From contig NC_049980.1 in assembly GCF_000003815.2 (NCBI RefSeq), positions 25,123,619-25,187,618 on the forward strand: DNA of 64,000 bases. The letters run 5' to 3'. This DNA comes from Branchiostoma floridae (Eukaryota > Chordata > Leptocardii > Amphioxiformes > Branchiostomatidae). Positions 15,501 to 46,300 of this stretch are shown here, piece after piece. The notes beneath the pieces were generated by a model. It did not search any database. It had not been told where the DNA came from and saw only the letters and a program-made list of their open reading frames with translations. Position 1 is the stretch's first letter; each line of letters starts with the position of its first letter. Position numbers and translations under genes: made by a program.

Positions 15501-18500
15501 ATCTACTTTGTACCCAGCATGCTGCCTGGTACTTTTGCTTGAAATACTACTGTAACAATCTCACTTGTACTACCATTGCCAGAGCAAGTACATGGATAAT
15601 CTGAAGTAGTAACACAATCCTAGAATAGTTAACATGCTTAGCAGCATCTACAGTCTCCCTTGGGCCACACAGGGTTGCTAGGGGCTAGTCCATTGGTAGG
15701 GAGATATTTGTACTCAGGACTCGAAATACTGGGTGCATGTGCACCCGGGTGCACCCAAAATTGGAGCTGTGCACCCAATTATTTACCCAGCCATTGTACT
15801 TGTTTAAGAATTTGATAGCATGGATGGAACTAAGTGTTGTTATTAGGTTTTTCTGACATTCTACTTGAATTTAAAAGGTGCACCCAAAATTTTTTAACCT
15901 GGGTGCACCAGTGCACCTTATCACAAAAATGAATTTCGAGCCCTGGTACTTAAGAATATCTTATCCTGACAACTACATGTATCATTAGAGAATACAGTTT
16001 GTCTCAAGAAGCTAGCTGTACTGATAAATGCAGGAATGTCATACATCTGACCATCCCTTTTCCACGTACTCCAGTACCTGCAGAAGAGAAGGTTCCCCAG
16101 GACGCCCAGCCCAGATATCTTGAAGACGAGGGGTTCTACGTGGGTGAGAGACCTCCTGTGCCCTACAGGAACCAGAACATTGCTGAGGACAGACTTCTCA
16201 AGGAACCCGATGAACGGGGGTCCAAGTGGTTCGGAGAAGACGGAAAGATAATCGCTCTTCCCGATCCGTTAAAAACGGAACCCACCCGTCCCCCAAACAT
16301 GCTGATAGACGAACCAGAGCCCATGTTAGAAACTGAATACCGCAAGGCGTGGCTGAAGGAGTTTGATGGGCGGTACATCGATGGATCAGAGCAGATATCC
16401 GGCCATGGACGGTACCAGCTGGATGTTGACGTGAACACGCTAGTCTTCACCCACCACTCCCTGTTCAGTCGTGAGCACGTTCTGTCGGCAAGACTGAACC
16501 AGCTGTACCAACAATACTTGGTGAGGACACACAAAAACATGGCCAATTTCCTGACTGATAAATTGAAAGCGCTGAAAGCTGCAGCAAGACACCTGGAGTC
16601 TCAGGAGGGACAGGGACTTAACCCTCAACCTGCCGAGCAAAGTGGGAGGCTGAGGGAGTACAAAAATGAAATAAGGTGCGCCTCTTTTAAATTGTGGGAA
16701 TCCAGTGTTAATAGCCTTTTAGATTTCATGCTGTAGTAATTCAGTAATTTGCCGATTATATTTCCATTTTCTAAGTGATAAAATTTGTAGGCGAGAATAT
16801 CGTTCTCAAGAGAAATAATCTAAAATGATACTAGCTCATTTGTATGTTCACCCTTTTGAGAAAACTGACAATTTTTCATTTCTGAAATGAGATAGACATC
16901 TACCAGAAAATAGTCATCTTTGATATGTAACAACAGCATACAGAAAAATGGCCGTAAGGCCACAGTACAGAAGGAACATGTGATGTTATTCATGTCATGT
17001 CTTTCCCCAGACAAACCCGTAAGCTGCGCGATGCGGAGCAGCAGGCTGACAGAAACCTGCTGAAGAACATCCTGAAGGTGTGGCGCGACATCAAGGCTCT
17101 CCGCCAACTGCAGGCCTTCGCTAATACCTCCGTCAAACTCGTCGTGCGCAAGTACGTCTTCCTTAAAGTTAGATTTCATTCTCAAATTATCCAAGTATCA
17201 TTCCCTGATCTGTAGCCTGGCTAAGAAACTGTCCAGTGTACCAGACAAATGTGGGAATGTGGAGTTGAGTATGCCTAAACTGCTGAAACTTATAGATAGA
17301 TATCTAATTTTAGAAATTTAAGCTACTTGTGAACATGCTGTCATTTAATTCTCTTTAGCATTAGAGTTTGTATTTAAGATTGGAGGAGAAATTGAACCCA
17401 GCATGGACAGTCGTTAAGAAAAGGTCCTGTTCTATTGAAAAATATGTCCAGGCCCCATGTTCAAAACACATGTGACAGTTGAGAGAAATTCTTAACAAAG
17501 CCATAAATAAGAAAGATGTAGGGGTGTGATTATTCCCAGTTTTCTGTTGAAATGAGACTGAAAATTCTGTCCTTTTCCCCTTAGAGAGGAGACAGACAAG
17601 GAGAACGACAGGGTGGTGTGGGAGCAGGAAGTAGTAGAGGAGGTGCAGGAGGAGGAGGATGCAATGGAGGAGGAGTACCGCAGGCAGGTGGACAGATACG
17701 AGGCGATGATGGCAGAGTGGAAGAGACAGCACAAGGCCAGGGTGAGTGCATGAAAAGGCCTATGTCTAGGGAAAAAATGTTGTGTTTCCTGTTTCCCTAC
17801 CTGCCCTAGTAAAACCTACTGATCCATAACTCTAGACTTTTTTGGGTGGGCAGTTGAGTCAGATAGCTTCTAGTTAGAATTCCTATTCAGCCTGCTTCCT
17901 ATTGATGTAAAGATACTGCTTGTCCTATCTCAATCAATCATTCGCCAGCATCATATCTAATGACGGATAAATGCATCTACATGTATTATGCACAGCATTC
18001 AAGGTCGACATTGAAAGACACTTAGTGTCCACATGCATTTCAGTTTACTTTGTTCAACTGCATTGTAATATGTCACACTAGAGTTTCGGCCAGCCTAGAA
18101 AAAATTACAAGAAAACAAAAAGATAATCCCTTCCTACTGACCCCAATTTTTTCAGGACTGAAACAGGAAACACAACATTTTTTCCTAGGCCCTAGAGGCT
18201 TTTTGCCCATGTCTCAGGGTTTTCTTTAAAGAAGCAACAAAAGATTGTTTGATAAAGATTGAAGCCTGCCTTCACTTCTTGTTGTAGAAGCAAAAGAAGA
18301 AGAAAAAGAAGAAGAAAGAAGGCTCACAGGAGAGTCTGCAAGACAGTCTTCAGGATGAGTCTGTTGATGAGGGGGAACAGTTACCCAAACCAGAGGTAAT
18401 GTCATACAGAAATCCACAGTTTACCAACATACATGTACAGTAGACAACATTCTACAAATAGCTAACAGTTTTGCACTTTATTTTGCTTAAAGTACAGGTT

Positions 18501-24500: not shown

Positions 24501-27500
24501 CACAGCTTGACCCATTGTTACTCCTCTGTACAGGGTACCGAACAATGACTACTCTCCTAGCAACTTGCAGACCGTGGACGACACTCTCTTCATCAATGTG
24601 TTTGATGAGCTGATTATCGACATTCTCGAGGTGGGCGCTAGTCACCTTGTTATTAGTCTCATGGACAAAATAACAAGCATGATAAGCAAGACAAGCATTT
24701 ATGGTGAATAAGTACAAAAATGAAGTTAAGAAGAATGAAGACATTTTGAGGTTTCCTCAACATTTTAAGGTGTGTTTCTTTACACCAATATTTTTCATGG
24801 AGTGACAACATTAGTGTAAATCTCCTTAGCAATATAACCATATCATAGGGATAAGATCAATTCAAAAAAATACTTATAGCTTCCTGTACACCTTAGTATG
24901 CCCATATTCAGATTTCATATTCAGCTGTTGCCTTCTTGCAAAATTCTTCTGTGTGACAATTGTTCAGCTAACATCCTTACATAGACGGAAATGGCTTTCG
25001 GTAGATGTGCTAAGATCTAGACTAGACTGCAGTAGCTCTACACTTTGCTTGAACACTTGTACATTGCTTGAACACTTGTACATTGCTTGAACACTTGTAC
25101 ATTGACTGCAACAACTGCGCTGTAACATCTTGGTCTGTTCAACATGCACTGCGCCTGTCAGTCTTCACTGGTGAGTTTGTCTGCTGTAGTTAGTGAGACC
25201 AGCCCTGAGGCTGGGGACATTGTCACTTCTTTCTTTCTTTCTATGCTGCCATGTTAGATCAGTTTTTGACACAAACATGCATGGACATAAAAATTTTGCT
25301 CTGTAACATTAATCTGATACAGTGCATGTATTACAGTGTGAACTATGGAAGGTATCTAGCTGGGCTGGGCCTGTTGGTGACTGTTTGCAAAAGACATTGT
25401 CTAACAGTTGACAACATGTTGCCTATTTGTCACCAACAGGCTGGAGCCATTTGTTAGGTTATATTGAAGCATGCAAAAATCAAGCAATGAATACATTGCA
25501 CTTAATGCTAAAATGTCAGTCTCCCACATTTGACAGAATTTTCAGATCTACCCATTTTTTTTGGAAAGAATGTAGATAAATTAATATTGCATAGTCACAT
25601 TATCAGGACAGTCTACCAAACCCAGCATGAAGTAAGGCTGTTTAGTGTCNNNNNNNNNNNNNNNNNNNNNNNNNNNNNNNNNNNNNNNNNNNNNNNNNNN
25701 NNNNNNNNNNNNNNNNNNNNNNNNNNNNNNNNNNNNNNNNNNNNNNNNNATAAACACCATTATTGTTAGTTTTTTGTATATTGTCTTTTACCTGTATATT
25801 TGATTGCTGTGTTTTATCTAGTATCACATATGTATAACATATTTGTACTGTGAGCCTCACAATTCAGCCACTTGTCTGCTAAGAGTTTCAGATCAATAAA
25901 CCAAACCAGTCTAAACCAACCAGTCAATTGATAGAAAATTAACATAATTTGGCATAATATTGTTTTGATGGGTGTGCTTTCTTGCTCCCTGATTTTAAGA
26001 GTTCCTCCATTTTTTACAGATTGATGGCACGTTCAGAGTGGAGGCCCCTCCCGTGTTGCTAGGTTACAAGCGCGGAGGCGGCGGTGGGACGGAGGGTCTG
26101 GACCTGCAGATGGGCGGGAACGAGCACACGTACCTGACCCTGTTCATCACCATCGAGCCGCCCCTCACGCCGCTCGAGCCACTCAAGGAGAAGTTTGACA
26201 GCCAGGAGGACGAGAAGCTGCTGTTCCAGGCCGAGAAGTGGCAGGGCGAGGTCGAGAAGCGCTTCCCCAAGCGAAACATCTCCACCACGGTGACGGACAT
26301 CAACGGGAAGTCAGTGTTTGTGACCAGGTTCATCCAGCCGCTACGGCCGCCAGATGAGCTCATCGACAGCAATGCCGATACAAGACAAAATTCTGTAGGT
26401 GTTGGTTTCTTGTTAGAGCCATCTTGTTATTGTTATTGGTTTGGATGGGCCAACTACTAGTACTCTCTTTCTGCAGCCAGGGGCTGAATTGTGTGAAGCT
26501 TCCAATAAACATTAGATCCATCTTGTTATTGTTATTATAATTGGGTGGGCTGACTACTCTCTCTTTGAAGCCAGGGGCTGAATTGTGAGGAGGAATAAAT
26601 AATCTTTTAACTGTTACACTTGTACTTATTGGTCAAAGGTTTTTCTGTGATTTGTTATCGTATCTCAGTGCATCAAGTAATGAAAGCTACTTTACCTTAC
26701 AGGAGCGTGTGGCAAGGTTCGTGTCCTTGATCCCCTTCATCTCTGACTCGACACTGTTTGCAGGAATTTGTGACATCTGGAGTACCTGTGATGTGAGTTG
26801 GCATCACACAGACTGCCCTTTTTGTAGAATCCACATGATCACTTTTACATGTTAATGTGTGTATTTATATTATTGCCAGAACTTTTTTAAAATATGGTTT
26901 GACTGATAACACACAGTAAAAACTTTTCAACCCTCCTTCAGGACTCTACGTAAAAGCAGTTTCACAATATTCTAACATGTAAGTTGGTGCCTGAAGATGG
27001 CACTTGTTTGCTGATTTGCTTATGTGAATACAAACTCTGGAATATCTCAACAAATAGTTGTTTTCTTTTTGCAGCAATTTCTCCAGATGTTGTCTGGTGA
27101 TGAGGAGGAGCATGCAGTGTTGCTGTGTAACTACTTCCTCCACATGGGGAAGAAGGCCTGGGTGCTGCTGGGGTCAGCTGTGCCTGAGGGGCCAACGGCA
27201 TACGTCCTGACACTCGTATGTGGTTGTTAGAACAATGCAATGGTTGTCTGTGTCTGTCTTCCTGTGTTATGCTAAGGTCACATTTCCAAACCGGGGCCCG
27301 GCTGGGATGTTTGCGGAAATAAAAGATGAAAGTAAATTTGACCAAGAGAAAAAGAACTGACCCTCTTCTTAAATGTATGGGAAAAGGATAACATGCACAT
27401 ATCCTGCCATTACCCATTACCATAACTAAATTTTAGATGCTGCAAGTTTGATTCTGGCCGTGTCGCTCACCTGACATGCACGCTAATGGAAAGGGTTGCA

Positions 27501-29792
27501 GTCCTTAGGATGGGACATCAAGCCATAGTTCATTTTGCTCGTCAAACAGAGCTAGGGGAAGTTCTCTGGTACAACAAACCTGTACATACTGTACATAGCA
27601 TCTTTCTCCTCTGTAATGACCACTGGAAGACGGTAGCTCTTCAGTGAGCTAAAACTGGATTGAAATCACTTTCCTTTGTCTTCTACAGGAATCCAACAGC
27701 GACTACCTCCTGTGGAACCCCAGCTCGGGGGAGTTCTTCCAGCAGCACGACCCGTACTGCCCCATGCAGTCCGTGGGCTGCCTCATCAACCAGGACAACA
27801 TCTGGGCCAACGTGCAGGAGTCGGACTCCGCGGGCAGGATGAGCTTCGACACCACCAGGGAGGCGCAGTGGAAGCCGTTCTTCAGCCGCAGCTACCCCAA
27901 CCCCGGCCTGTCCAGCATACAGCCTGACCAGCTGGTCTATCTGCCCACAGACAAGGACTATGTGGCAGACCTGCAGGATAGGTCAGTTTCACACCGCAGG
28001 TTTCATAATGTTTCATATTCACGACCCTGTTTCATTGGGCTGGTAAGTCATTGTAAGTGACATAGCAAGTAGTCATTCGTTACATAGAACTCTTTGTCAT
28101 TGTTATGTGTAAGCCTGTTATGTATAAAACTGCGTAGATATTAGCCTTGATGCATTACTCTCGAACTTGCCATATGTTGTACACGTACAATTGTTGTGTA
28201 TTAAAGATTGATCATAGGATATTGAAAAACATAGCTGGCAATGACAAACTGGAAATAAGCTTCCCCATGTACAAGAAAACTCTGCATTCAGCAGCCCTAA
28301 TTAACTGTTCAGGGTCCAGCTTTGGCACACAAACAGAACTTCATACATACAACTAAGTTAGGGATCATTTTTTATATATACGTAGGTACTACTGTAATGT
28401 TGGCAACTTTTCAAATCAAGCTCACTATGTTCTGTTTCTGATTTTACAGATCTAGAGATAACCTGATCATGTTTGTCATGTGTCGGTTCTTTGATTACAT
28501 CCTGATCAAACACCTTTGTGGTGTATTCAATGAACATGTGTTTTGTAACATCAACTCACATAATTCCACCAGGTGCCATAATACTGCAATATCAAAAAAC
28601 ATTGTTAATACAGGGCTTCTCAAGACTGTCTTACACCTTCATATCTGTAGTGTAACTGTACAATGTATATACCTCAGGATTACTAGTGCTGCATTGGTAC
28701 ATGTCTTAACATAACTAGTCTTTACAATCATGTAGGATTGAGAGGAAGCTGAGAGACAAGGTCATGGAGTGGCGCCCCCACTCCATCACGCGCTGGAACC
28801 GGTACTGCACCCAGATCTTCCGCCGGCTGCTGCCCAGACTGGAGCAGAGCGGGGGGAGGGGCACCGCTGACGAGCACAGGACGGAGCTGGAACCCATCCT
28901 GGCTTCTTACAAGGTCTGGACTTCCCATTCCTATAGCATTTACCGTAGTGCAGTTTTTCCTTTCCATTAAAACCAAGTAATATACGTTGTGAACTCTTGT
29001 CGATCGTTGTCGTTGTCGATAAACAGCTCATCAAACATATTGATGAAGAGAGTGTCGTCCACGGTCTGCAAGTTGCTTGGAGAGTAGTCATTGTTTGAAT
29101 GCTATTTCTATCAGACTGTTATAGATTGTATTCATTGCTTTACATCTTGTATTTGAGTGTTGTCTAGAATCTGTTTTGTGATTTTTAATGTAATATGTAA
29201 CTGTTATACCTGCAATTGCTACCTAGTGCTCCATGAGTATTGAGTTGTTGCAGTTCACATGAAGTCAAAGAAAACACTCACTTCTCACCTATCATTTGAT
29301 ACAAGGGTTTTTGTCCTGTGTGTTGTCTGTGCTATCAGGTAGTGACAGAGAGACGTAGGCATATTCCTGATAAAAAGTTAGTTCCAAAACTGTTCTGAGG
29401 CCATGGGGGCAGTAGGTTGTTATCCAGGGCATGGTATTGCAAGATGGTGCCAATCACTCTCCTTCCACCACCTTTTACCTCCTTACTGGTACCTACTGCA
29501 AAGATGTTTCAGTCCCAGTTTGTCTGTGTCATGTTTAAGTACCTGACTTTTGGCATGTTGACATTGTTACTGAAGATTGTGTTGTGTTGTTGTGTCACTG
29601 CAGATGTCAGGGTTCCCCATGCAGATGCCGTACACAGAAGACAACCCAGTTGTGGAGGCAGTGTTCAGTACAGGGGTGCACCAGCTGCAAGGCAAGGACG
29701 TGGAGTTTGCCCTGGCCGTCCACATCCATCCCTACCCCAACACTGTCCTGTCTCTCTGGGTGTACGTGGCCTCGCTGGTCAGGAAGAGATGA
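6594..29792 (+). CDS. CC2D2A: CC2D2A, coiled-coil and C2 domain protein of the ciliary transition zone
   Basis: Coding exons: 6594-6604, 8666-8771, 9229-9330, 9547-9621, 9920-9986, 11252-11355, 11709-11804, 12189-12278, 13582-13599, 14687-14851, 15327-15528, 16075-16675, 17011-17151, 17585-17741, 18288-18395, 18860-19002, 19477-19654, 20047-20200, 20833-20980, 21379-21517, 22000-22212, 22569-22661, 22810-22901, 23321-23473, 23788-23866, 24019-24128, 24534-24630, 26020-26394, 26703-26792, 27075-27215, 27689-27981, 28736-28913, 29604-29792. All junctions are GT-AG and in phase. The sum is 4908 nt, 1635 aa; human CC2D2A is about 1620 aa. The start reads [14 protein letters not shown]. Identity rests on family-typical blocks such as [30 protein letters not shown] and the C-terminal HPYPNTVLS...YVASL(V/I)RKR. 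In vertebrates CC2D2A is a Joubert/Meckel (MKS module) protein of the ciliary transition zone. One exon expected between 24630 and 26020 is missing, probably in the gap. Confidence 0.95.
6739..6951. repeat. TA-targeting MITE 'A', full copy 1 (CC2D2A intron 1)
   Basis: 213 bp with inverted ends TACTGTAAATG and CATTTACAGTA. The interior has several GTTCGCGGTGG / CCACCGCGAAC motifs in both orientations, so most of the element can fold. The same family recurs at 57595-57776 (full) and 49810-49907, 52460-52546 and about 10518-10592 (partial). The TA at each end suggests a mariner-type mover. Confidence 0.85.
6954..8305. mobile_element. Non-autonomous DNA transposon with palindrome arrays (CC2D2A intron 1)
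   Basis: A 1352-bp element with perfect 17-bp terminal inverted repeats (CCGAAGTCACGGGTTCC at 6954-6970; its reverse complement at 8289-8305) and TA on both sides (6952-6953, 8306-8307). Both ends carry subterminal arrays of about 30-bp units, each an imperfect palindrome of the form GCACT..G...C..AGTGC. At 6969-6990 the unit is a perfect 22-bp palindrome. The right array has four near-identical units ending in GTCGTCACTCGTTTTCTAGTGC. The middle (about 7460-7980) is unrelated AT-rich sequence with no transposase frame. It sits directly against MITE A. Confidence 0.85.
10518..10592. repeat. MITE 'A' remnant (CC2D2A intron 5)
   Basis: The sequence GGTGGTTTTAAGTTTGTGG ... GCGAAAACCGTG ... ACCACCACGC matches the interior of the copies at 6739 and 57595. 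The CTGTAAATGC ends are missing, so it is an old truncated copy. Confidence 0.55.
13300..13481. repeat. TA-flanked MITE with CAGTCAAACCTGT ends (CC2D2A intron 8)
   Basis: About 180 bp. The ends are TACAGTCAAACCTGT and ACAGGTTTGACTGTA, an exact inverted repeat including the flanking TA. The interior has repeated GGCCACCTCTACAGAGG / CCTGTCTATAGTGGCCA motifs. Elements of this kind are widespread in marine invertebrates. Confidence 0.85.
13582..13599 (+). CDS. CC2D2A: CC2D2A microexon 9 (18 nt)
   Basis: An 18-nt exon (ELLAKK) between a TTCGCACGCAG acceptor and a GTTGGT donor. It starts and ends in phase 0 between exons 8 and 10, so including or skipping it keeps the frame. Its charge suits the surrounding Lys/Glu-rich region. 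The call rests only on splice sites and phase, so it is less certain than the other exons. Confidence 0.5.
14041..14201. repeat. Short inverted-repeat element (CC2D2A intron 9)
   Basis: Arms 14041-14076 and 14166-14201 pair over about 36 bp; the shared core is TTTCTTCCAACACAA. The loop is about 90 bp of AT-rich sequence. It lies immediately upstream of the foldback element at 14211. Confidence 0.8.
14211..14620. repeat. Foldback-type element with long inverted arms (CC2D2A intron 9)
   Basis: About 410 bp. The first 95 bp or so (TAAACACCAT, GGACTTCCA, GACAAACCTTAAT, GGTTAATC) return inverted at the right end up to AGGGTGTTTA. The interior holds a short tandem array of CCAGAATTCTGGGAACCTAA-like units, themselves palindromic (CCAGAATTCTGG). 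Confidence 0.8.
14687..18395 (+). CDS. CC2D2A: CC2D2A N-terminal half: acidic linker, conserved core and coiled coil (exons 10-15)
   Basis: Exon 10 encodes an acidic Glu/Pro/Gly-rich linker (runs of [15 protein letters not shown]). Exon 12 (16075-16675) is the largest exon with 601 nt. It holds the conserved stretch with [29 protein letters not shown] and HHSLFSREH. Exons 13 to 15 form a heptad-like coiled coil rich in E, K and R ([31 protein letters not shown]), ending in a lysine run (KKKKKKKKE-like) at the start of exon 15. This matches the coiled-coil region that gives the protein its name. Confidence 0.85.
15716..15945. repeat. Inverted-repeat element with CTCGAAAT ends, copy 2 (CC2D2A intron 11)
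   Basis: The ends are GGACTCGAAATAC and GAATTTCGAGCCC. The interior repeats GGGTGCAC and GTGCACCC, giving nested palindromes. Same family as 4077-4324. Confidence 0.7.
17757..18199. repeat. MITE with GGCC...AGGGAAAAAATGTTG ends, copy 1 (CC2D2A intron 14)
   Basis: Left end: TAGGGAAAAAATGTTGTGTT followed by TCCTG. Right end: the inverted form (AACACAACATTTTTTCCTAG). A related copy is at 56471-57087, and a reversed partial copy at about 21170-21283 keeps GGAAGCAGGCT and TTTTTTCTAGGCC. Confidence 0.75.
18860..22212 (+). CDS. CC2D2A: CC2D2A first C2-like region (exons 16-21)
   Basis: Residues roughly 681-1006. Exon 17 (19477-19654) reads [20 protein letters not shown]...[19 protein letters not shown], a beta-strand pattern that matches the N-terminal C2-like domain described for CC2D2A proteins. 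Exons 18 to 20 continue it ([34 protein letters not shown]). Exon 21 includes [15 protein letters not shown] and [15 protein letters not shown] see no clear set of calcium-binding aspartates, so a non-calcium role is likely (inference). Confidence 0.8.
20173..20590 (+). repeat. 103-105 bp tandem array copying the exon 18 end and its 5' splice site
   Basis: Exon 18 ends at 20200 with GTCGGCAGTG, followed by donor GTACATG at 20201. The same 28-nt exon end plus donor recurs, slightly diverged, before GTCCATG at 20304, GTACATG at 20407 and GTACATG at 20512. Each is preceded by the repeated intron part (CTATGAAGGAATT). The period is 103, 103 and 105 bp, not a multiple of three, so use of a downstream copy would shift the frame. 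A fifth, partial unit without the exon-like end runs to about 20590. Confidence 0.85.
21170..21283. repeat. Partial MITE related to 17757-18199 (CC2D2A intron 19)
   Basis: Reversed partial copy: GGAAGCAGGCT, then GTCAGCAGTTTTTTCTGG and an end TTTTTTTCTAGGCC. It includes a run of C (21212-21226) in place of the usual interior. Confidence 0.55.
21904..21957. repeat. Short hairpin in CC2D2A intron 20
   Basis: CTGTACTTTATTGCT at the left pairs perfectly with AGCAATAAAGTACAG at the right, a 15-bp stem around a loop of about 24 bases. No known RNA gene fits. Confidence 0.6.
24019..26394 (+). CDS. CC2D2A: CC2D2A second C2 domain (exons 26-28), split by the gap
   Basis: Exon 26 reads [12 protein letters not shown]...[15 protein letters not shown], the classic C2 strand with the NPxWNEE motif. 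Exon 27 (24534-24630) continues with [13 protein letters not shown]. After the gap, exon 28 starts [16 protein letters not shown] and runs to the FITIEPP and FESQED-like ([11 protein letters not shown]) blocks. Vertebrate CC2D2A has roughly 30 residues between the FDEL...DILE and IDGTF blocks; they are absent here. Exon 27 ends and exon 28 begins in phase 0, so the missing exon should be a multiple of three. Confidence 0.85.
25046..25105. repeat. Three-copy 21-bp tandem repeat (CC2D2A intron 27)
   Basis: Three consecutive units of GCTTGAACACTTGTACATT followed by a short spacer. A small minisatellite with no evident function. Confidence 0.8.
25650..25749. other. Assembly gap (100 N)
   Basis: Exactly 100 undetermined bases, the usual placeholder for a gap of unknown size. 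It lies in CC2D2A intron 27, where one conserved exon is expected. Confidence 0.99.
26703..29792 (+). CDS. CC2D2A: CC2D2A C-terminal transglutaminase-like region (exons 29-33)
   Basis: Residues about 1340-1635. The blocks [66 protein letters not shown] and [13 protein letters not shown] correspond to the C-terminal region that published domain analyses assign to an inactive transglutaminase-like fold in CC2D2A. The last exon ends at the TGA at 29790-29792. This is the best conserved part of the protein and made the identification. Confidence 0.88.
27266..27330. repeat. MITE end fragment (CC2D2A intron 30)
   Basis: GCTAAGGTCACATTTCCAAA followed by CCGGGGCCCGG resembles the right end, in reverse, of the element at 35678-35881. 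Only one end is visible. Confidence 0.45.
29015..29095 (-). pseudogene. Inverted 81-bp copy of CC2D2A exon 27 inside intron 32
   Basis: The reverse complement of 29015-29095 matches 24541-24621 of exon 27 at 78 of 81 positions without gaps. The three changes alter one codon silently (CCT to CCA) and two by V to M and I to F. The match lacks the first 7 and last 9 bases of exon 27, its splice sites and all flanking intron. On the minus strand the frame stays open for about 15 more codons beyond the match. In the CC2D2A pre-mRNA this segment would be antisense to exon 27. I call it an exon-derived pseudo-copy; it could also be a used regulatory segment. Confidence 0.85.
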
Positions 29793-31675: not shown

Positions 31676-33191
31676 ATGGCACCCATGATCCTGTTTCTCC
31701 TAGCCGCTGTTGCCGGAGCTGCAGTGGCGGGAGACGTCCCCTGCCGTCCCATCAGGGACATCTACCCGTCCGGGAAGGAACTGTGCGAGAAGATGTGGGA
31801 CGGCGCCTTCGTGTACGAGACCGACCTGAGCCGGGCCTACACCATGTGGTTCTTCGAGCGGGACAACCCGAACGACAAGGTCTCCTACAAGCTGGGGAAA
31901 ACTCCGCCGAACAAGTGTTACCTGCAATACCTGCATAAGGTGAGAAAGGGGCAGTGTTACAGCTGTTCTTAGCATCGATTCCATGGTGCTTCATCATCCA
32001 AGTTGTTTGTTGTTAACTTGTGTTTGATCCAAGCCACTGATTACATATTGTTTGTCGAATAAAAATGATCCATACTCAAGAGAGTAGCGCAAATTTGTTA
32101 GTAAAATGAGCTACCGTGTTCACAGGTGTATTTTCATAACACAGCCATGCAGCAGTTTAGAAGGAGAGCATTTTGTTTGCTTCGTAGTATGAACACTTAC
32201 ACTTACCTTTTCCCATCCAAGACCAACACCAAAAGCTTTGTGCCGGGTCAAACATTATACATAAAAGATCTGGCTAATCATCCAGTTAGCCTACCGATTA
32301 TTTTCAACACAACTGTCTTTTTTATTGGTAACGTTACCGTTACTCTTCAACAGACTGTTCCGGGTCCCGAGCCCGACAACTTCACCGAGTGCCACCCCTG
32401 GAAGGACCGCACCTGTTGCCGCCAGCAGACTGTCCCCTCCCCGCAGAAGATCAACCAGAACTACGGGCCTGAATGGCGCTGGGACCGCTGCGGGCCTCTG
32501 TCGTCTGCCTGCGAGCGCTTCTTCGTGCAGGAGGCGTGCTTCTACGAGTGTGATCCAAATGCAGGTATGCTAAGTTATTCTTGATAACACCGTCACTGAT
32601 GCCTTAATCAAAGTTAACCAACAAAATGTCAAAAGAAATAACAAGCAATTTAACAGACACCTTCAATCTCACTCCTGTCCTGTTTCTTCGTCAATTTGTA
32701 TCATAAAACACAGATAAAATAAGTAAGAGGCCAGGGACCGAGTCATCATCAAGTAACAGGTGAAATACTGTACGATCTCGAACAAAGCTAATGCATACTG
32801 CACCGAAATGGGTCCAACACTTGAAGAAGAACCGTCGTCTCGTACATTCAAGCAAGGGGGTTCTCATTAACTATCAGTCCTGGAGTTGGTCATTAGCATA
32901 ATACGATTATCCCATTGGCTTCCTTTTCCCCCTAAAGGTCTTTACCGCAAGGTCTCAGACAAGGATTTCGACGAGTCCAACCCCGAGCACAACAAGTGGC
33001 AGATTCAGGGCATGCCGATTCGAGCCGACTACTGCGACGCCTGGTGGACCGCCTGCAGGAACGACCTGTTCTGCGCACACAGCCAGGGGAGCTACTTCTC
33101 CTGCGCCGCGGAGTACGACAAGGCCGGCAAAGATTACTTCTCTGATTTCATCAACAGTATCAAGTCCATTATTGCCTGGTTTTCCCAGTGA
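31676..33191 (+). CDS. Secreted folate-receptor-family protein with permuted block order
   Basis: Three exons, 31676-31939, 32354-32564 and 32938-33191, give 242 aa with phases 0 and 1. The start sits in GCACCATGG and is followed by a signal peptide (MAPMILFLLAAVAGAAVAG). Exons 2 and 3 carry the folate/riboflavin-binding core: PGPEP...ECHPWKDRTCC, WRWDRCGPLSSACERFFVQEACFYECDPN, then MPIRADYCDAWWTACRNDLFC. They match FOLR-type CRPW...CC, CGxxxxxCxxHFxxxxCxYECSP and CxxDCxxWWxDC. Exon 1, however, reads CRPIRDIYPSGKELCEKMW...MWF...NPND.V, which in folate receptors is the C-terminal block (CQPF..FP....LCNEIW...MWF...NPNEEV). The protein ends soon after the WW-C block with no GPI-anchor tail, so it is probably soluble. 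The ligand is unknown; folate or riboflavin is only a guess. Confidence 0.85.
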
Positions 33192-34358: not shown

Positions 34359-37300
34359 CTATGCCCAGGCCCAGAGGTCCTGAGCTTCGGGCAGGTGGGT
34401 CTTGAGTCGGATGGCGTCGGTGACGGGGAGGTCCCGGTAGAACGTCAGGCCTGTCAGCAGCTCCACGTCCTTCACGCGTGCCACGTTCATGGACAGGTAC
34501 TCCCGTGGGGTCTGCAGAGAAACAACATGTTCCCAACATATGCCTGGCGTCACAATGTCGTGAAGCATGATCATGTTTTTTTCGAGTGCTGCTATTGCAT
34601 AGTACAGATTTAGAATCCAGCAACCTAAGTGAATGGCTCTGTTAATTACCATCACAGATTAACTTTCATGTTATTGTGAATGATGTTGTTAAATGTATCG
34701 ACCACTGTAATTGAGAGGTGCGGAGTTCACTATTTGTAAAATATTCTCTTCTTTCCTAATGCTTAGGTCACATTTCTAAACTAGGGCATTAGGCGACGTG
34801 CCGACTCATGACATGCGAAAGACGTGATACAGGTTATCAATATACATATGCGAGCCACTGTTAGCTATGATTTTTGGGACAGTCGACTTTCTGAAAAGCT
34901 TGATACAGGGAAAATTCTTACCATACAGGTGGGTATGCTGTCTGCGTGCGGCAGGATGAAAGACACCACCTGCCACCTGGGACACCTGTCCGTAGATACT
35001 AGGCTGCCTCCGTCACACCTGGTGACAGTCACGAAGAAGTGCGTGGGAAGCGGGATCCTGATAGGCATGCCTGTTGTAGTATCTTCCACGAACCTGTACA
35101 AGATATTGAGTGTATCATTGCAGACAACTTTTTTCTGTTATCATATCCTATGTTATATCTTTAAGACCGCCTTAAAGATATAACATAGGATATGGCAACA
35201 GAAAAAGTTGTTTGAAATGACTGACCTCCTTCCTTGAACTAAAAACGACAGAGACCGAAGAGTACGTGGTTTCAAGGTTAAAAAGGGAAATGAAAATGAT
35301 GGTGTAAAGGGCGGTGTTCACAGACGATTGAATATAAAAGTGCAAATAAGCAACGTGTGAAGACAAAATCCATGGACCTCATGTACTGGGCAGTTACGTT
35401 GTCCCTCAGTCCGTCAAAGTTGTAATCAAATATGGGCCCGGTGACGACATGGACCCCTTGGTACATCTGTGCCCAACTGGCGACTAGGCTCATCGTGAAG
35501 TTCCAAATGCCTGCAAAATGCAGCAGTCAGTGATGTCATGATCATTTTTCATAAACGACGTCCAGTGGTACCTTTAAATCACATGTTTATCTACTCGACT
35601 CAAGCAGTTATAAGGGTTTAGAGATGATGGACGATGGAACAAGACGTCCAAAAGTGATGATTTATCTTTTATTATTTCTTAGGCCTACGTCACATTTCCA
35701 GACCTGGATCCATCCGGGCAGCTTTTGCAAACAAAAAGTATGATATAAAGGACACAAGACGTAAAGAGAATAGTCGTGGGCATTATTTGTGTATATTTTA
35801 ACATATAACGTTATGTGTCTATTTATCGTTTCCACAAACAGTCCGTCCCGGCCCCGGTTTGGATATGTGACGTTAGCCTTACTGAGATACCGACACATGG
35901 TAGGAAAATATTCTCAGACCTTCCTTGAAGCCCCGGTGCTGCGGTACGACGTTAGACATGACCAAGGCTTCCATCTGCCCCGTGAGGTCGGCACTCAGAC
36001 CTGGCGAGGGGAAACGAAAACGTCAAGGATATTAGTATCTATTAAGAGACAATTGATACAGGCATTGAGGAATTCGTGTCATCCGTGACCGTATATTGAC
36101 CTTATCGTATTGATCAATGCGACGTGATGTGCATGTAGATAAAAATCGAATCTAAACGATGATCCAGGGATTTCACATACGGTGGAACTCACTTGGTGGA
36201 TAGAGGAATCCCATGGACAGCGTCGTGTTCTCGTACTCGGAGCAGGAGGCCGCCTGCCCCGCCGGTAGTCTGACATCTGTCCGGAGGCAGTCAGCGATCT
36301 CAGACGAGAGACCCTGGGTGGTCTGTACGAAATCTTTGTGTCAGAAACTTACAATCAAACAAATTTCGTTCTTATATACCGGGGATCTGTTTACATGCTA
36401 TTCACCTATAAGGACTTAGTGAAGACACACACAGAATACAAAACAGATAGGTTGACAAAATGAAGGGATGTATTTGAGCAGATACAACATCACATGCAGT
36501 GCTCATTTGGTCGTGGTTCACAACAACATCATTAAGCCTATATTCTCTATTTGAAAAAGGATAAGTACTTGGTCCAGTGTGTACGCCGTCCACGTGGGCA
36601 TGGCGTAATGCTGGGAGAAACTGGTGACGTAGTTGGACGCTGTCAGGACACAGTAATCTGAGGTATACATGTTCTGGGGCGTCCCGGTTGGTAGGTGAAG
36701 TTGCTGATACTGCGAGACTGTAGAGAAACGACATTATACCTTGATAGTAATTAAAACTGTAGGGTGCTCAGCATAGAATAAAACAAGCGAAGTAGTCTGC
36801 TATTATACTGAAATGTCTGAATTGTCGAAGGGACGAAAACGACTTCAGTAATGTTTTAGCTGTACCTTCTGAATTGGTCAGGTTGAAGTTTTGGTCATAT
36901 GTTCTCCACTGGGCCACCTGAGGACACACATGACAGCATTAGGATTTGTGTACATAAGCACAGACTGATATTGTCTTGAAGTGTCTTGTTGTTGTAGTAG
37001 ATCATTGATCTATAGTTATCCATTTCATGCTTAATCAGGTGTTGTATGAAAATGGTGAAATGCTGAAGTGGCATGTGACCGTACTTACGTTGCACGAACA
37101 TCCGGGCATGGTTGCTGCGAGGATAGAGTTGTAGTCTGAGTCGGTGTCAGGAAAGGAACACGTCATCGTAGAGTCCAACCCGTCTTCCTGGGGCGGGATC
37201 GGCCTGGGCTGCCGCAGGAGATGGTTCAGACTGCCCCTGGTGCCGTTGTTCGGGGCAGGAGTTACGCCCAGTAAGTCTGGATGGATGGGTGTGGGCAAGA

Positions 37301-40300
37301 CAGACATACATGCATTTTACAGGCAACGTTGCTTGAGTAACTGCTTTTTGGCATATCTTAATACCTGGATGTCATCGGACTTTGTGATTGTTACATTGCA
37401 GCATCGCAGTGCTCCTGGTTCCCATTCGTTAGTACATGGGCCACCCCGGTTAAATTCGGGGAAGGGTATCTCGGTTGGGGCTGCACTTGGCCCTTTTAAA
37501 GAGACGTAATTTAATGGGGGTCCCGTTTCTGAGAAGGCTCCTCGAGCAAAAGGGGAGGGCTAGCAACCCCTCGTTGTAAAACTATACACTGCTACTGAAG
37601 CAGCAAGGAAACTCATCACCATATATGCCACAACGTACTTTGAGATTGTTACATTACATCAAAATTAAATTCTTATGTTCTAGCAACAGCCTATCAAATG
37701 GACATTTTTGTCAGATATCAATCAAAAATATCATGAAATCGCTGCTGCTGAAGTACTGAAGGAGCATCTTTACCGGAAAACATATTGTACAGTTCGATGT
37801 TGCCGAAAGGCTCAACCTCGACACCTTGATGGAAGGCGGGTCCATAAGCAATGAACAAGGCCTGGAAAGAAAGATGACAAGTCGTTTAACTAGACCATGC
37901 GTCGTATAGTACATAGAAAAGATGAGGAACAATTGTATGAATGCATCGATCAATGGATATTTGTAAGCTCAAACCGTTGACATCGAACAACACAGTACAT
38001 ACCGACATGTTCCTGAACTCGTTGTCGTACCCATGTTCGCCGCCATCACAGTTACTAAAACTGCGGAGCCTGAAAAAATGTAACGTTATGCTTATTTATA
38101 ATGTATAGGGTTAGAACATGTTCAAATACGTGCACTATTCATTACTACCATGCGTCTTCTCCTTCTTATTGAGCGTAGTGTGTAATATATACTAGTTTTC
38201 ATGAGTAACTCTCAGTCTAAAAGGGGATTCAAATACAGTCAACCTGCCACTTTTCGTGGTCCCGTATATTATGTTTCCAATCGTTCCAAGCATCAAGAAC
38301 CTTGGGTGTAATGGCCACCTGTATACTATAACGTTATGTTCTTCAAGTCTCTTGGGCCAGGTCATTATAGACTACCAATTCCAGATAACGGACACGGTTT
38401 GAAAGAACAATCCCTCCGACCTGGCGAACAGCCACTCGTCCTCCACCGTGCACACCACATCCTCGATCCTGCGGTTGTTGGCGTAGTGTAACCTCTTGGG
38501 CAGACCGGCTTGCTTAGTGTAGGGCATAAAGTGGTCATCGACGCACTGTGGATAGACAAGAAACGTCAAAGGACTTCCAATAAAAAATACAACGGTTTAA
38601 CAAAGGAGCTTTGATAAAAGCTCATTGGTTTATCTTTTTCTATGGCAAATGGGAATTTTTGGGTCAGTGTTCGCCAACAAACTCTCCGATATAGTGACAC
38701 TGGGCGAAGTTTGCAATGTAAAATCTTTCAAGGTTATTCTTAATACAAAAAATGTCGGGACAAAACGTTTATCTTTCACTAAATATGGCATGGGAGACTG
38801 ACCGTCAAATTCTTGACCACGCCATCGGGATCCCCTGAAAGGCAAAGAGAAGTTCCATATGTCTATTTTAGTATTTTTATCTTCTTGATTTATTCGGAAC
38901 GTAGCCTTAGTTACAACACACGATTCATGTAGCAGAACACAAGCGCGTTAAAACTCCAAAAATATGTTACATTTCTTCTTTTCGTTTGGAAGAGATGAAG
39001 CTTCAGAGGAAGCCTTGGGTCTGACTTTTGGCGGCGGTACTCACAGACGTAAGATTCCGGTGCCCTGAAGGACCTGGTCAGGCGCATGAGCGTGCCATCA
39101 CGTGGCACATAGATCGGACTGATGTCCATCAACTGTAACACGACATTTGAAAATCTGATCATGATGAAAGTTCAGTCGAAAATGTTCAAATCGCGTTTTC
39201 CAAGTAAAGGCATTGGTGGATGGTACAATGTTTAAAACATTAATTTGGTGACTTAACGAAAATTAACTCACGTCTTCTAGATAGACAACTCTGTCGCAGC
39301 TCGTTGGAGTCATACCTGAAAAAATAAACAGAAACGTGACAATGGTCGATACCATAGGCGTTTATCATAATGAATATGTGACGATTGTGATAACAAAAAG
39401 CACAGTGCACATCAATAGATACAAATTGTAGGCACAGTTTCACGCTCAATTGTAGAGACTCTGGATTTGTGTGATACATTACGCAGTTGCAGCTTCTAAT
39501 AGTTTTCCCTTGTTTTCATTTTACGTGTACAAAACGTTAACTGCCATAGTCTCATGCCTATAGCTACTTGGATAGCTTCTTGAATTCCGTCTGACATGAT
39601 TACGTAGAGTTGATGACTGCTTACCGTGATCTGCCACCACCACCACGTTCACACAGTCCGACAGGTTCCTGGCATGGAGACCGTCCATCAACCGACCGAT
39701 CATCTTATCTACACGCATCAGTTCCTTGTTCACCTGAGGATGTTCAGTTTCCCGTAACAAAGTAGAATGTAAGTCGAAAAGTCAATTTTAAACGTTAGAT
39801 GTTCAAGACTTTGGTGCCACACACTGACAATATGGTATTGTATCGGGCATGTGCATATGGTATCATAACTCAAGCTTGTGGTAGTCTCCATTGCAAACTT
39901 TATGGCCAACGATTTTTTTTAATTTGTCATATCCATCTTACTTTGGTTTTCCTATTGCTGCATCTTCTGCCATGACTCCCGGTTTCAATGATGTCAGCCG
40001 ACAGGCAGCAGTGAGAAAAACATACATAATCAGCTAAACCGGCAACATCATAATGTCAGCAGTAGTAGAGACTGCTGTAGCGGACAACTCTCAGGTTTCT
40101 ACTTACGGCGTCGCTGTCAGGTCCTTCTATATGACCCGCCAGGTCAGGCTGGTCAAAGTACGTAATGAGTAGACTCGGCCTGCAGATAAAAAAACCTTGC
40201 GTTATAAAATTTATCTACAAAAGCGTACAACGATAATAAAGAAAAAATACCCCCAAAACAATCAAACGAACAAACTTTGGATCAATTCTAAAATCCAAAA

Positions 40301-43300
40301 CATACACACCAATCAGAACCGACCGAACCCACGTACATACCGTTCACTTTGAGGCAGTTCTAGCCACTGCAGGGCTTGGTCTATCCTATCTTCATACGGT
40401 ACGCTCCTGCAATGACGATAACTTGATTAAACAGGGACCAGGTAGTCGCTTTGCTGCATAGAGCAACGTGTCGATATTCCATTATCGATATTCCATGGCA
40501 ATTATTCACCTTGTTGTATCAATACAGTCAGTAGGTACCTGTCCGTGTAATGTGAGGCTGTGCTTGAGGCACCTCCTCGAACTCGGGTCTTCCAGTTACC
40601 AAATAATCTAATCGGAATCTAGAGCTCAGCTGTGACGCCGATACCAATTGAGCTACTGGGTATCCTCATTGTGAACAGCAAGATGATAATCACGAAAATC
40701 ACATTAACATTCGTTAACGATATCGATGAAACGAAACTTAAGGTAAAATATTATCATACTTACCCATCGTATTGGTAATAGTAAGATGGCAGCATGCCCT
40801 GGATGTCCACATCAGACCCGGGCCAGAAGTATGTAGCCGCCTTCAGCCCCTGCTGCTCCACTGTATTCCACAACTAAACACCATGAAGCAGAGACATCAA
40901 AACAATGTGAGGTCAAGCCTCTGTTGCAGAAGTCTCATCGATTATTTTTCCTCCACTGTATATTATACACAAATATCTGATCATATACCTGGTTCTGATT
41001 ATGCACAATTTTCTGATTGTATCTAGTTCTAGATTGTATCTAGATCTAGTTCTCGGCAAGCAAACCAACATTAAGGGGAATAATGCATTAGCTATCAGAA
41101 AAATGTTCTTAGTTAGCAACGTTTGCAACGGAGGCTAACGATGAACATATTGTTGGACGACGGAAGAACGAGAAGTTGAGGATTTCAACATCTTTCAACT
41201 TTTGCAATATCAACTTCAATACTTAGATGCTTGTGATTTCAGTTACACCATAGAAACGTTCGTTCGTTCGCTGCAATAGCATTGCCAATGTATTAGGGAC
41301 TTGTGACAGAAGATAGACAAGAAAAAAAAAATACAGGTAGAACAAAAACAGTCAAGAAGTCAGAAGAAAGCCTAAACCTACCGGCTCCCCTCCCCACCAC
41401 CGAGCATTCCTGGCCTCCGAACTGGAGATTCTGAAGGTGGCCCTAAACACTTCGTCGTACATGAGGTTGTCGATGATACCGTGCGACTCCGGATATAGGC
41501 CCTGGAGAGAGATCGTTATGTTTGGTAACTTAAAGGACCTTAAAGTTTTGCAGAACTAGAAGACATCGACAACCAAACATGAAGACATCGACAACCAAAC
41601 TAGAAGGCATCGACAACCAAACTAAAAAGAAATACTTAGTAAATCATAATAGACCTTACGGAAGTTGCTGTACTTTTGTTGTGTCATATGTACGAAAGAC
41701 TATGTAGGCAACACATTCTAAAATTAGACACAGATTTTTTTATGTCAACTGGCTTTCTTTCTGTTTTGTTATGCCTAACAAAAACAAATCGCCCCTTTTG
41801 CACAGATGCCTCTAATGTACGTGTAACACTGATTTTAACGTCAACAGTTGAACTTACCGTGACAATAGTGTAGTGGTTGGTGAAGGTTTTGGTTGGGTAC
41901 TGTGCCCTCATGTACGGTGCGTGGGTCCCATACCTTCCTGGAGAAACAGCACATGTAAGTTTACACTATGTAGTGGTAGATATTTCAATGTCACTGTAGG
42001 AGCTCAACCGGTAGCAGTATCGCAGATAGAGCTCCTGGCTCCCTTTGGTTAGTACCTAGGCGACCCCGCTTCAATCATGGGAAGGATATCTCGGTTGGAG
42101 CTGCACCCACCATTTTAAACAGACATAATTCAATGGGGGCCTGTTTTTGAGAAGGCGCCTCGAGCGCGTTAAAGGGTAAGGGCTAGCAACCCATATATAC
42201 ACTGCCACTGAAACAACAAGGTAACTTGTTGCCCTATATGCCACAGGACAATGCGCGTGTCTGAACGAACGAAGTAGAGCACTCATCATTAGAATCTTAA
42301 GTTTTTTCTTCTTCTTAAAACTACAGATAGCTCAGTGGATGAGGAAGGGCGTTAACATACTCATTTTGCCGAGGTAGGGTGTGATGTTCCTCAGGAGGTA
42401 GTCTGCCCGGAAACCGTCCATGGAGATCAGAATCAAGGGAGGCTGGGAGAATCTGAATGATGAAAAAAAGCATCTCTTCTTGTACATCAACGCAAAATAT
42501 GTTGATTCAATTATGCTGATATGGTCAACCAAAGAATTGCAACACAGATACACATGGTCACAGTCGACAATAAGTCATGGTGATATGGACATTACCTTAT
42601 CATAAAAACATCTAAATGTCTCTGTCTGTTTGTCTTGAAACCAAAATAACGACTCCAGTAAATCAACACCTACACATACCCGGGAGGACATGAGGGCTCT
42701 GGTCCTGGTACCACACTATCATCCAGCCAGCTGTCACTGATAGCAAACAGGAAACATTGGTAAGAATGCGCACGCCACACGGGGGTTGCACAAGACGAAA
42801 TGATGATGACGTCATTCTTGAAGTCATTGATAGATTAACAAAACCAATTTCCTCAGATACTAGATACAGTATGCTTACCAGCTAGTATTGAGTCTGGGTC
42901 CACAAAATAGCCTTCGCTCCCTAAGATGTTGTGCATCCCGCCACCAAGATGAGCTTTAAAGGTGTGAGCCAATTGCCCGGCTGAAACTGCTACATCCACT
43001 GCTTGATAGACCACTAGTTCCACAAGAACGCCGCCTGCCGGTGCCGATCGAAAAGATAATACCTTGCAGCCTTCGTACACGGCGGTAACATCGCTCCCTT
43101 GGAAAAGGATGTCAACCTGCAGCAGACCACCGTAATGTCTTAGTTTGTTTCAACCAGAGACACATTATCTTTAGATTGATTATAGACTCGATTAGTTATT
43201 AGGAAAGGCTGTCTGCAAACTTTGCCTTTAACTCGTTTTTAAGTTTAAGCAGTGCAATATGTTGTATTCCCAAATATTCTGTGTGTGTATGAAAACAAAA

Positions 43301-46300
43301 GTTTAAGTAACTGATGTATGTCAATACTCCTCATAGCCCTGTTGATCCTGACAGAGAAGGGGAATGATGTGTATGATAAGATACATGTGCCTAACTCTTG
43401 AAATAAGACAGGTGGAAAAAGGTAGTACAATGGATTAATGATGCCAGATACGACCAGTTCAAGATTGACTCTTCGCTGAGCTAAGCTGGTTCGAGATTTC
43501 CTCCTAAGTTAATGTCTCCTCGAAGCACCTACCGATTCTTCTATGGCTACCGCATGTTTCTGGAAGTCAGCTGAGGTTCCGTCTCCGAGACTGTCGGTGT
43601 ACTCGGCGGGAAGACCGGCCATGGCTGTTAGAGTTATCTCCAACTTCGTGGTCGTGACGTCACCTGAGTATCGGTAAATATTTTGACGTTAGGAGTGGCT
43701 TTCTTTTCCAGTTATTTACATCAAGGCATGTGAAACGTGTGACATCCTTATGCCCCTTATGCCATCAACGACGAGCATTTCTTGACAGCTTGCAGGTCTA
43801 CATGATACTTTCTGAACAATACTAGTGAGGAACTCTTGAGAGTATTGAAGTCACAGTACCTTCGCCCTGAATGACCAGGGACTCGGGAAGAATGACGTAA
43901 CCGCCGGTCCCCAGCAGATTGTTCTCGGCGCCTCCGAGGCCAGCTCGGAAAGCATCGGTAATCTCCGTAGTGAACTTGGGTGACCGAAGACGCAGAACAA
44001 ATTTCGCGGCGATTCCCAAGTCATCATCCGTAAAACCGGTGACTTCGGAGTCGCTGTAGATATTTTTGAGATCCCCTGCCGAAAAAAGAGCGTCAATCTG
44101 AAAAAGAAAGTAACACACAAAATTTCTTATGTAGTTTTTTTTTTTTAATGAGAGTACTTAGGGCAAGGTTCAAACCTGACAGCGCCAAATTGCGCAAGGC
44201 ATTCGCGTCGCAAACTGGAGCAAACAGGCGAGTGACGCCGATTTCATATCCTAAAGACACAATTACAGCACCACCCACCTCTCTTTCCATGTAAGTGGCC
44301 AGCTCCACGGATAGTGCTGAAGTGCCATCAGTAAGATCGTCGGAGAAAATGGCAGGTTCTCCGCGGACAAAGCTCAGGACGACCTCGCCATTGTACCGCC
44401 TTTCTGCGCCAGGCAATGCTGTTCCGGGAGGAGGCATTGTCGGGCCATGCGTTGACCCACCATTTGTGTTATCTGAAGCACATCGTAGGTAATGTTAGTA
44501 GCTTGGTCGCTCATCAAAGATTTTACCTTCGCCAAGGTTATTTTTTTTGTAGTGTTTATGCGTTGGTGGGTACATGGATGAACAGCATAACTCAAGAAGG
44601 CCTGGTTGAATTCTCTTGATATTTGGTATGTAAAGACATTGAAATGATTAGATTCTAGGGGCCCTAGCGGCTTGTTACGGTATTGCAACGGAAGTTCTGG
44701 TGTTAAGGATATGTCATGGTCGTCATTTTGGCTGCAGATGGCTCTTGGGATAGAGTAAGTGGTGTCACTGAGGTGGTGTAAGTGGTGTTGGGTGATACCA
44801 ATTCTGTTGGGCTGGTCTGCTAACCTTGGAGGACAGGTTAACAAACCAGCCCGTACCCCATACGGTGTCCTCATTGTCAGAAGCATATACACACAGGGTG
44901 TAGGAGCAGTAGTGACAGGCCAAACATGAACGGTGACGAGTCAATAGACGTCGAGCAAATCTTGGGAGGAAAAATCGTGACATTTCCATAGCTTCCCTTC
45001 TTTCTGTTTGCAGGTGACGCTACCGGCCTTGATCATAAATGTGCCTATTCCCTCATCTTCGTACCTTCATGATTGCCCTTATTCAAGTTATTGACTCTGC
45101 CCGTAAACTTCCAGTTGATATTGTGATCGCCCTCTATGTACAGTGCTTTAGAAGAAGTTTTATGTGAAGGGTGTACGTTAGGATTATGTGAGGGGTGTAC
45201 GTTAGCAAGGTCGTGTATATAACATACAAAGATAATATCTTGTATCTAGTTTATACAGTTGTGTCCGGCTAGAAATCGTATCATATGGCAACGCACGATG
45301 ACGCATGACGTCATGGGAACGTGCTGAGTGACAGGGCGTGATTGACCTGTACGTCCGCGTGCGATAAGCGTGATCGGTCTACTTTGCACAGGTGCTGTGG
45401 CACCGTGCCTGTGGTTATCACGTGTGCTGAGTACCGGTGCCCACCTAGACAGACATGAGTTGAACACGGGATAACCTCAACAGTTCAAACACCGTTTCCA
45501 AACGAGAGGAGAGTCATGCAAGCGTCGGATGTTATCAGTGTCTGTGAAATCGAAGTAAAAGTGGGTTCACATGTGCGTATATGTTTAAGTCCGTATGAGG
45601 CGCGCATGGGAGTATTTGCCTCCACCAGGCCCCACAGGTCGTTGGAAAAATAATAGAAATTGGACAAACGTAAACAGGTAACATGTTAGACGAGTTAGCT
45701 GGGTCGCTAACCATACTTCTCGGTTAGCTAACTCATCTGGCATGTTATGCATCTATATTTGTCCAATTTGTACTATTTTTCCCGCGACCTGTGGAGCCTG
45801 GTAGAGACTAAGAGCTTCATACGCACCTCAAACGGATTTTAATATATACGCATGTGTGACCCCACCTTAACCCTATCTGCAATATCTGCCACACTGACAA
45901 GAACTCTAGTGGAGGCGCATGGCGAAGGCGCATGGCTATTGCGGATTGGCCCTCTACAAGCTAGTACCACTCTCCACCTGAGCGGACGTCTTTCGGCAAA
46001 ACGCAACTTAACTCAGTAATATGTTGTAACCTTACAATAAAACTGCATTACACGGCCGGCAGAGTAACTCAATGCAGTGATGAATAAAAAATTTTTTTTT
46101 AAAATCTAGTCCTTACACTATTATCTGCACCCTTTCCTATTTCAATCAAGGGGATACTATTAAAGGCGGCACTGCAAAGTCGCTTCAAATCGTGTTGGAT
46201 AATGTCATTCGCGATACGATTCTGTATTGGTCGAAGTTCAGTTGGGATTGATTAGGGACTGCTGCGCCCATCCCCCTGTAAGGCACGTAATTGCCTGTTG

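Follow-up and report, generated by a model that had tools for sequence, protein, structure and literature searches.

The folate receptor-like gene described here, in a 64,000-nucleotide stretch of Branchiostoma floridae DNA (the window), is very probably one of a group of natural circular permutants of the folate receptor domain. The block that is C-terminal in ordinary folate receptors (the C-block) comes first, and the blocks that ordinarily precede it follow. Circular permutation had been proposed in a sequence-only reading of this DNA, and it is supported by the order of the profile matches, a rotation scan, the joint loss of a cysteine pair, and the finding of the same order in four paralogues. 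At the sequence level, the permuted folate receptor domain family is real and conserved, and it is new as far as literature searches show.

The gene lies on the + strand, with its ATG at 31676 and a TGA that ends at 33191, exactly the extent first read from the letters. The start, the stop, and GT-AG joins in an open frame confirm three exons (31676-31939, 32354-32564, and 32938-33191), which give a spliced product of 242 residues. Two possible start codons and the GT-AG sites combine in sixteen ways that keep the frame open; the model chosen has a phase-0 intron after ...HK and a phase-1 intron in ...NA/G, and both introns also fit the four paralogues. The features of the gene are as follows.

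31676..31939, + strand: exon 1, 88 codons with signal peptide, canonical C-terminal block, linker, and the Cys that is canonically N-terminal, up to ...LHK before a phase-0 intron
31676..31729, + strand: signal-peptide-like segment by hydropathy, residues 1-18 (19-residue Kyte-Doolittle mean of 2.16 at residues 1-19)
31742..31885, + strand: C-block (residues 23-70), by profile and sequence matches
31796..31798, + strand: Trp41, now in exon 1, aligned with FRalpha Trp171 (pterin stacking, excerpt of PMC4947182)
31886..31939, + strand: 11-residue linker after NPNDKV, followed by Cys81, the first canonical Cys (Cys37 of the FRalpha precursor), and ...LHK, where the exon ends
31940..32353, + strand: intron 1, phase 0, position common to the chosen models of all five permuted genes
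32354..32564, + strand: exon 2, TVPGPEPD..CC..CFYECDPNA
32543..32545, + strand: Tyr152, aligned with FRalpha Tyr85 (pterin stacking, excerpt of PMC4947182)
32565..32937, + strand: intron 2, phase 1, position common to the chosen models of all five permuted genes
32938..33191, + strand: exon 3, with the ..GMPIRADYCDAWWTAC.. block, the new C terminus, and the stop
33108..33191, + strand: new C-terminal tail, residues 215-242 and the stop, amphipathic and without a transmembrane helix; four paralogues have one beyond here

Pfam PF03024 (Folate_rec) matches the whole protein at 130.9 bits over two stretches, against a curated cut-off of 29.8, which confirms the family assignment made from the letters. 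The blocks are not in the usual folate receptor order. The better stretch places residues 81-213 (exons 2-3) on profile positions 2-122, whereas a scan of exon 1 by itself gives positions 133-163 with 19.9 bits (E 7e-4), under the cut-off. Searching the two halves separately had been suggested as a check, and the reversed order that it gives bears out the claim that the last folate receptor block comes first, after the signal. Nine distinct folate receptor and Juno sequences in the PDB each align with the window protein in two stretches whose order is swapped; the exon 1 stretch is weak (i-E 0.11 to 0.5 in four alignments). Exon 1 on its own recovers these nine at E 0.0018 to 0.033, and the next matches are unrelated nucleases at 0.069. 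A C-block profile whose training set included the window's own sequence scores a single place in the entire window above 12 bits, namely exon 1, and the human C-block has its sole match at E up to 1 in the same place. A further exon restoring the usual C-terminal block had been named as an outcome contrary to permutation, and none was found within the window.

Related genes were sought in the same genome (513,431,437 bases in 431 contigs), where match counts are lower bounds. The window protein gives at least 18 matches at E up to 0.001, and Folate_rec gives at least 35 at E up to 1. Among the Folate_rec matches listed, seven start at profile position 124 or beyond and are separate C-block exons, a count that leaves out tandem-gene matches running from core into C-block. 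Five of these exons lie upstream of their core, one on contig C2 (the window), one on C9, and three on C3, all with weak matches under the cut-off (E 0.02 to 0.86); the two downstream of their core, on C6 and C7, match at E about 1e-4. The permuted order is found in at least five genes: the window gene, a C9 gene, and a tandem trio on C3. The normal order is found on C6, where the first exon was read, and C7, where it was not located; these two genes and the human receptors are unpermuted homologues. The spliced C3 models have 273, 268, and 287 residues and the C9 model has 278. Intron 1 of each C3 gene can also be joined 4 bases further on at both sites, with the same length and an open frame; the join chosen here matches those of the window and C9 genes. 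The end of the third C3 model differs after the tail motif, and its last residues are uncertain.

The three C3 copies, standing in tandem, spell out e1-e2-e3-e1-e2-e3 and are readable in another phase, one in which exon 1 would end one gene and exons 2-3 would start another, both in ordinary order. In the single copies on C2 and C9, however, exon 1 comes first; it has its own start codon and signal-like segment, precedes the core at five loci, and is joined in an open frame at all of them; and no other C-block or core was found in the window. That exon 1 might belong to another gene had also been named as contrary to permutation, and both this misjoined-gene reading and the tandem-phase reading were rejected on the paralogue evidence, which leaves them scarcely any probability. 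Chance is made unlikely by the occurrence of the same order at five loci on three contigs, loci related by descent, together with the rotation test below.

The second and third of the three tandem C3 genes (L010, L011, L012) are very close, with dS of 0.03-0.11 by region and ends that differ, and are a recent duplication. Intron 1 of the C9 gene holds a 24-codon exon-2-like remnant followed by a stop (L009 5145-5074, minus strand), nearer to permuted exon 2 (37.0 bits) than to C6 exon 2 (26.2). When remnants of normal-order genes were sought in the permuted loci with C6 exons, only this remnant and weak, chance-like matches appeared. Lesser Folate_rec matches (L048, L049, L050, L051) lie on C13 (two), C7, and C14 at E 2.5e-6 to 0.03, and the C-block profile finds no C-block above 12 bits there. 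Among bacterial and archaeal genomes, a search for relatives turned up 12 pattern matches, of which none was confirmed.

For the rotation test, a profile was built from human FRalpha and the normal-order C6 and C7 proteins only (C7 without its first exon), and every rotation was scored. When each ectodomain is cut three residues beyond the SCA with the Cys169 equivalent, a trimming chosen after the untrimmed result, rotation raises the score of the window protein from 105.0 to 140.9 bits in one continuous stretch. The C3 proteins rise from 96.1 to 136.3, 93.3 to 126.3, and 93.3 to 124.3, and the C9 protein rises from 96.0 to 137.5, the gain being 31.0 to 41.5 bits in all five trimmed ectodomains. 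The best first residue in the window protein is 77, between the C-block and Cys81, and residues 70-86 come within 3 bits. Shuffled C-blocks (200 per gene) reach maxima of 113.7 (window), 99.1, 105.2, and 101.2 (C3), and 106.6 (C9), staying at most 12 bits from the unrotated score. Untrimmed, the window protein is the sole gainer of the five (105.4 to 129.4 bits), and the transmembrane paralogues show no real gain (95.4 to 95.7, 93.3 to 93.7, 92.5 to 92.8, and 95.4 to 95.4), presumably because the paralogue tail then sits inside the rotated domain.

The eight disulfides of the FRalpha precursor use sixteen cysteines (37, 57, 65, 66, 89, 96, 105, 109, 135, 139, 146, 152, 169, 175, 189, and 209), of which the window protein has 14. 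In an alignment that left out Juno and riboflavin-binding protein, positions 135 and 209 are both non-cysteine in all five permuted proteins and both cysteine in the eight others (two human receptors, C6, C7, and the four domains of a tandem gene considered below), and the other 13 columns are complete in all 13 sequences. Cys37 falls outside that alignment and is present in each permuted protein. In a permuted gene, position 135 is in exon 3 and position 209 in exon 1. We take Cys135 and Cys209 to be bonded in folate receptors, following a pairing list assumed here. This list is in accord with the disulfides of the FZ-CRD superfamily and the N-terminal CRD of HHIP: HHIP bonds C141-179 and C145-168 and ECOD bonds C8-C12 and C9-C11 (excerpts of PMC8660895 and PMC4256011) correspond when mapped by order, a mapping that is our own. 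Loss of the pair jointly, across the new break, is what a retained fold would predict; the loss is one inherited event, not five.

Relative to an ordinary receptor, the new ends of the chain lie in the short Cys169-Cys175 loop (FRalpha numbering), and a linker of 11-12 residues bridges the old ends. In the mechanism that we propose, exon 1 would occupy the position normally taken by the C-terminal block, where the bonds Cys89-175 and Cys139-189 would hold it. The bond Cys135-209 would have tied the former C-terminal segment to the core and would have been given up, and it is possible that the polypeptide itself now ties there, making the bond dispensable. Pairing within a chain and pairing between chains look alike in the sequence and cysteine data, and the C-block might be unable to reach its own-chain place and complete the fold of a partner in a domain-swapped dimer. 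We consider such a dimer improbable, as the stretch from the end of the C-block to Cys37 keeps to that linker length in all five permuted proteins and each of the 14 ectodomain cysteines has a same-chain partner under the ordinary scheme.

Duplication followed by out-of-phase trimming is a general route to circular permutation. What sets the present proposal apart from that general route is the kind of domain, extracellular and rich in disulfides, and the presence in the same genome of a tandem gene with a similar exon layout. On C2, at 24.6518-24.6626 Mb (24651771-24662557), the blocks of four ordinary-order domains (D1 to D4) follow in succession. With GT-AG joins, an open frame runs from block 1 of D1 into block 3 of D4; 56 splice combinations pass, and the joined model leaves out the gene's first exon and the final exons of D4. 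His-rich stretches occur in and after the later part of this gene. Between D2 and D3, and again between D3 and D4, one exon holds C-block, linker, Cys37, and HK and is followed by a phase-0 intron and then by PGPEPD or PTPEPD, the same layout as that of permuted exon 1. The D1-D2 join and the start of D1 differ from this layout, and in C6 and C7 the nearest intron lies directly before the Cys57 equivalent.

Because the inter-domain exons of the tandem gene are laid out like exon 1, out-of-phase trimming is suggested. In the likely course of events, the first domain of a tandem two-domain gene was trimmed at its front and the second at its back, so that the signal, the C-block, and the N terminus of the next domain remained. 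We infer descent from a tandem ancestor of this kind and not from the living C2 gene. The permuted core is nearer to C6 (39% identity) and C7 (36%) than to the tandem units (28-33%), with the human receptors at 31%, and the tandem gene has introns absent from the permuted genes; for both reasons, it serves as a model of the ancestor and not as the ancestor.

Unrooted trees built from the full sequences, the core only, and the C-block only all split off the permuted set, with support of 100, 100, and 82. The full tree also groups the normal-order and human receptors (98) and the tandem domains (100), for which the C-block-only tree gives 91 and 68. These trees bear on whether the permutation is real but exon 1 came from another folate receptor-like gene by exon shuffling and not by trimming. 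Exon shuffling into a folate receptor gene has been proposed for an amphioxus locus (excerpt of PMC10199209), but the same main groups appear in the core and C-block trees, modestly supported in the latter, and exon 1 has, in addition to the C-block, the ordinary N-terminal Cys and HK, laid out as in two of the tandem joins. We regard shuffling as unlikely and favor trimming.

The protein had also been described as secreted without a GPI tail. By hydropathy, that description fits the window copy, which is probably secreted; it does not hold as a rule for the family, four of whose five members are transmembrane with a short cytoplasmic tail. In these four, a hydrophobic helix near the end (19-residue mean of 2.97 to 3.06) precedes a shared short tail. 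The window protein has no C-terminal hydrophobic helix, its maximum beyond residue 40 being 0.40. A hydrophobic tail of the GPI type is found in neither case, the window protein having none and the paralogues having a transmembrane helix with a polar tail. A tblastn search with the C9 tail against positions 20001-45000 of the window gave no match at E up to 0.5. The window tail is amphipathic (its 18-residue moment is reached by 8 of 5000 shuffles) and might touch membranes.

The missing transmembrane tail could also be a sign that the window copy is a pseudogene or is decaying, with an order that has no consequence. This seems very improbable, as the copy has open frames, all 14 ectodomain cysteines, and usable splice sites, and the dN/dS of its C-block is 0.14, 0.15, and 0.18 in three of four comparisons, the fourth being saturated. 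Simple dN/dS over four regions (one nested in another) and ten pairs is 0.08 to 0.48 in the 26 of 40 cases where it is computable, values with dS above 1 being rough and most dS above 1 unreliable; the other 14 are saturated at synonymous sites (pS 0.75-0.85, pN 0.15-0.27).

Nine folate contacts of FRalpha are named in PMC4947182, with Tyr85 and Trp171 stacking the pterin. The window protein keeps these two alone. Asp81 is replaced by Glu, His135 is in a shortened loop, and Arg103, Arg106, Ser174, Tyr60, and Trp102 are changed, with less certain columns in the gapped Trp102-Arg106 region. The C9 permuted protein also keeps Ser174, and the normal-order C6 protein keeps six of the nine (Asp81, Tyr85, Arg103, Arg106, Trp171, and Ser174). 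The stacking Tyr and Trp are kept in all five permuted, all four normal, and three of four tandem sequences; D4 lacks both. Because most folate-contacting residues are gone, folate binding by the permuted class is unlikely. A flat ring compound, sandwiched by the conserved Tyr and Trp, would be the likely ligand. The permuted proteins could be extracellular flat-ring binders, acting as transmembrane receptors in the four paralogues and as a secreted binder or carrier in the window copy.

Like FRalpha, FRbeta, and Juno (PF03024), the window protein has the same blocks, 14 of 16 cysteines, and the stacking Tyr and Trp; unlike them, it has a permuted order, a lost Cys pair, a shortened Cys152-Cys169 loop, no GPI-type tail, and few of the folate contacts. 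Riboflavin-binding protein is secreted and has the ordinary block order, and its single match to FRalpha is consistent with that order. Its structure (PDB 6hce) matches exons 2-3 at E 4.8e-14, in the core stretch only. Amphioxus FrLRR and BbFR/BfFR share with the window protein their lineage and a folate receptor domain and are set apart by their description in PMC10199209, which, in the part available, gives them an N-terminal Fr domain and predicted GPI sites, calls the folate contacts of FrLRR poorly conserved, and mentions no permutation. The excerpts of PMC8660895 and PMC4256011 contain no permuted member of the FZ-CRD superfamily, the circular permutation treated in the latter concerning other families. 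Among the titles and abstract openings listed from the open-access literature on folate receptors with amphioxus, Branchiostoma, or circular permutation, no permuted folate receptor is described.

The fuller account toward which we lean, with less assurance than we have in the permutation, is that of a conserved permuted group, mostly type I transmembrane, that arose by trimming of a tandem gene, replaced a disulfide by a peptide link, took on a new ligand, and would be the first natural permutation on record in the folate receptor/NPC1/Frizzled CRD superfamily. To our knowledge, natural circular permutants of disulfide-rich extracellular domains are uncommon. With normal-order, tandem-domain, and permuted genes in one genome, the steps of a permutation can be studied directly, as can the possible exchange of a disulfide for a peptide link, and a permuted receptor shows which parts of a vitamin pocket depend on chain order.

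Around the gene, 2 of 10 window frames scanned with Pfam gave a match. Both are upstream on the + strand, at 15954-16733 and 27653-28057, with DUF5523 and CEP76-peptidase-like domains, which we take to be marks of a CC2D2A-type ciliary protein and perhaps of one gene. Downstream, at 34359-46000 on the - strand, are pieces that presumably resemble an ENPP phosphodiesterase, with a SEA-like stretch; one ENPP-like piece had no match in Pfam. These neighboring exons have no bearing on the permutation finding. The window also contains an inverted repeat (24541-24622 and 29014-29095), with 82-nt arms that are 96% complementary and 4.4 kb apart, and a hairpin at 35130-35206, with 36-nt arms that are 94% complementary and a 5-nt loop.
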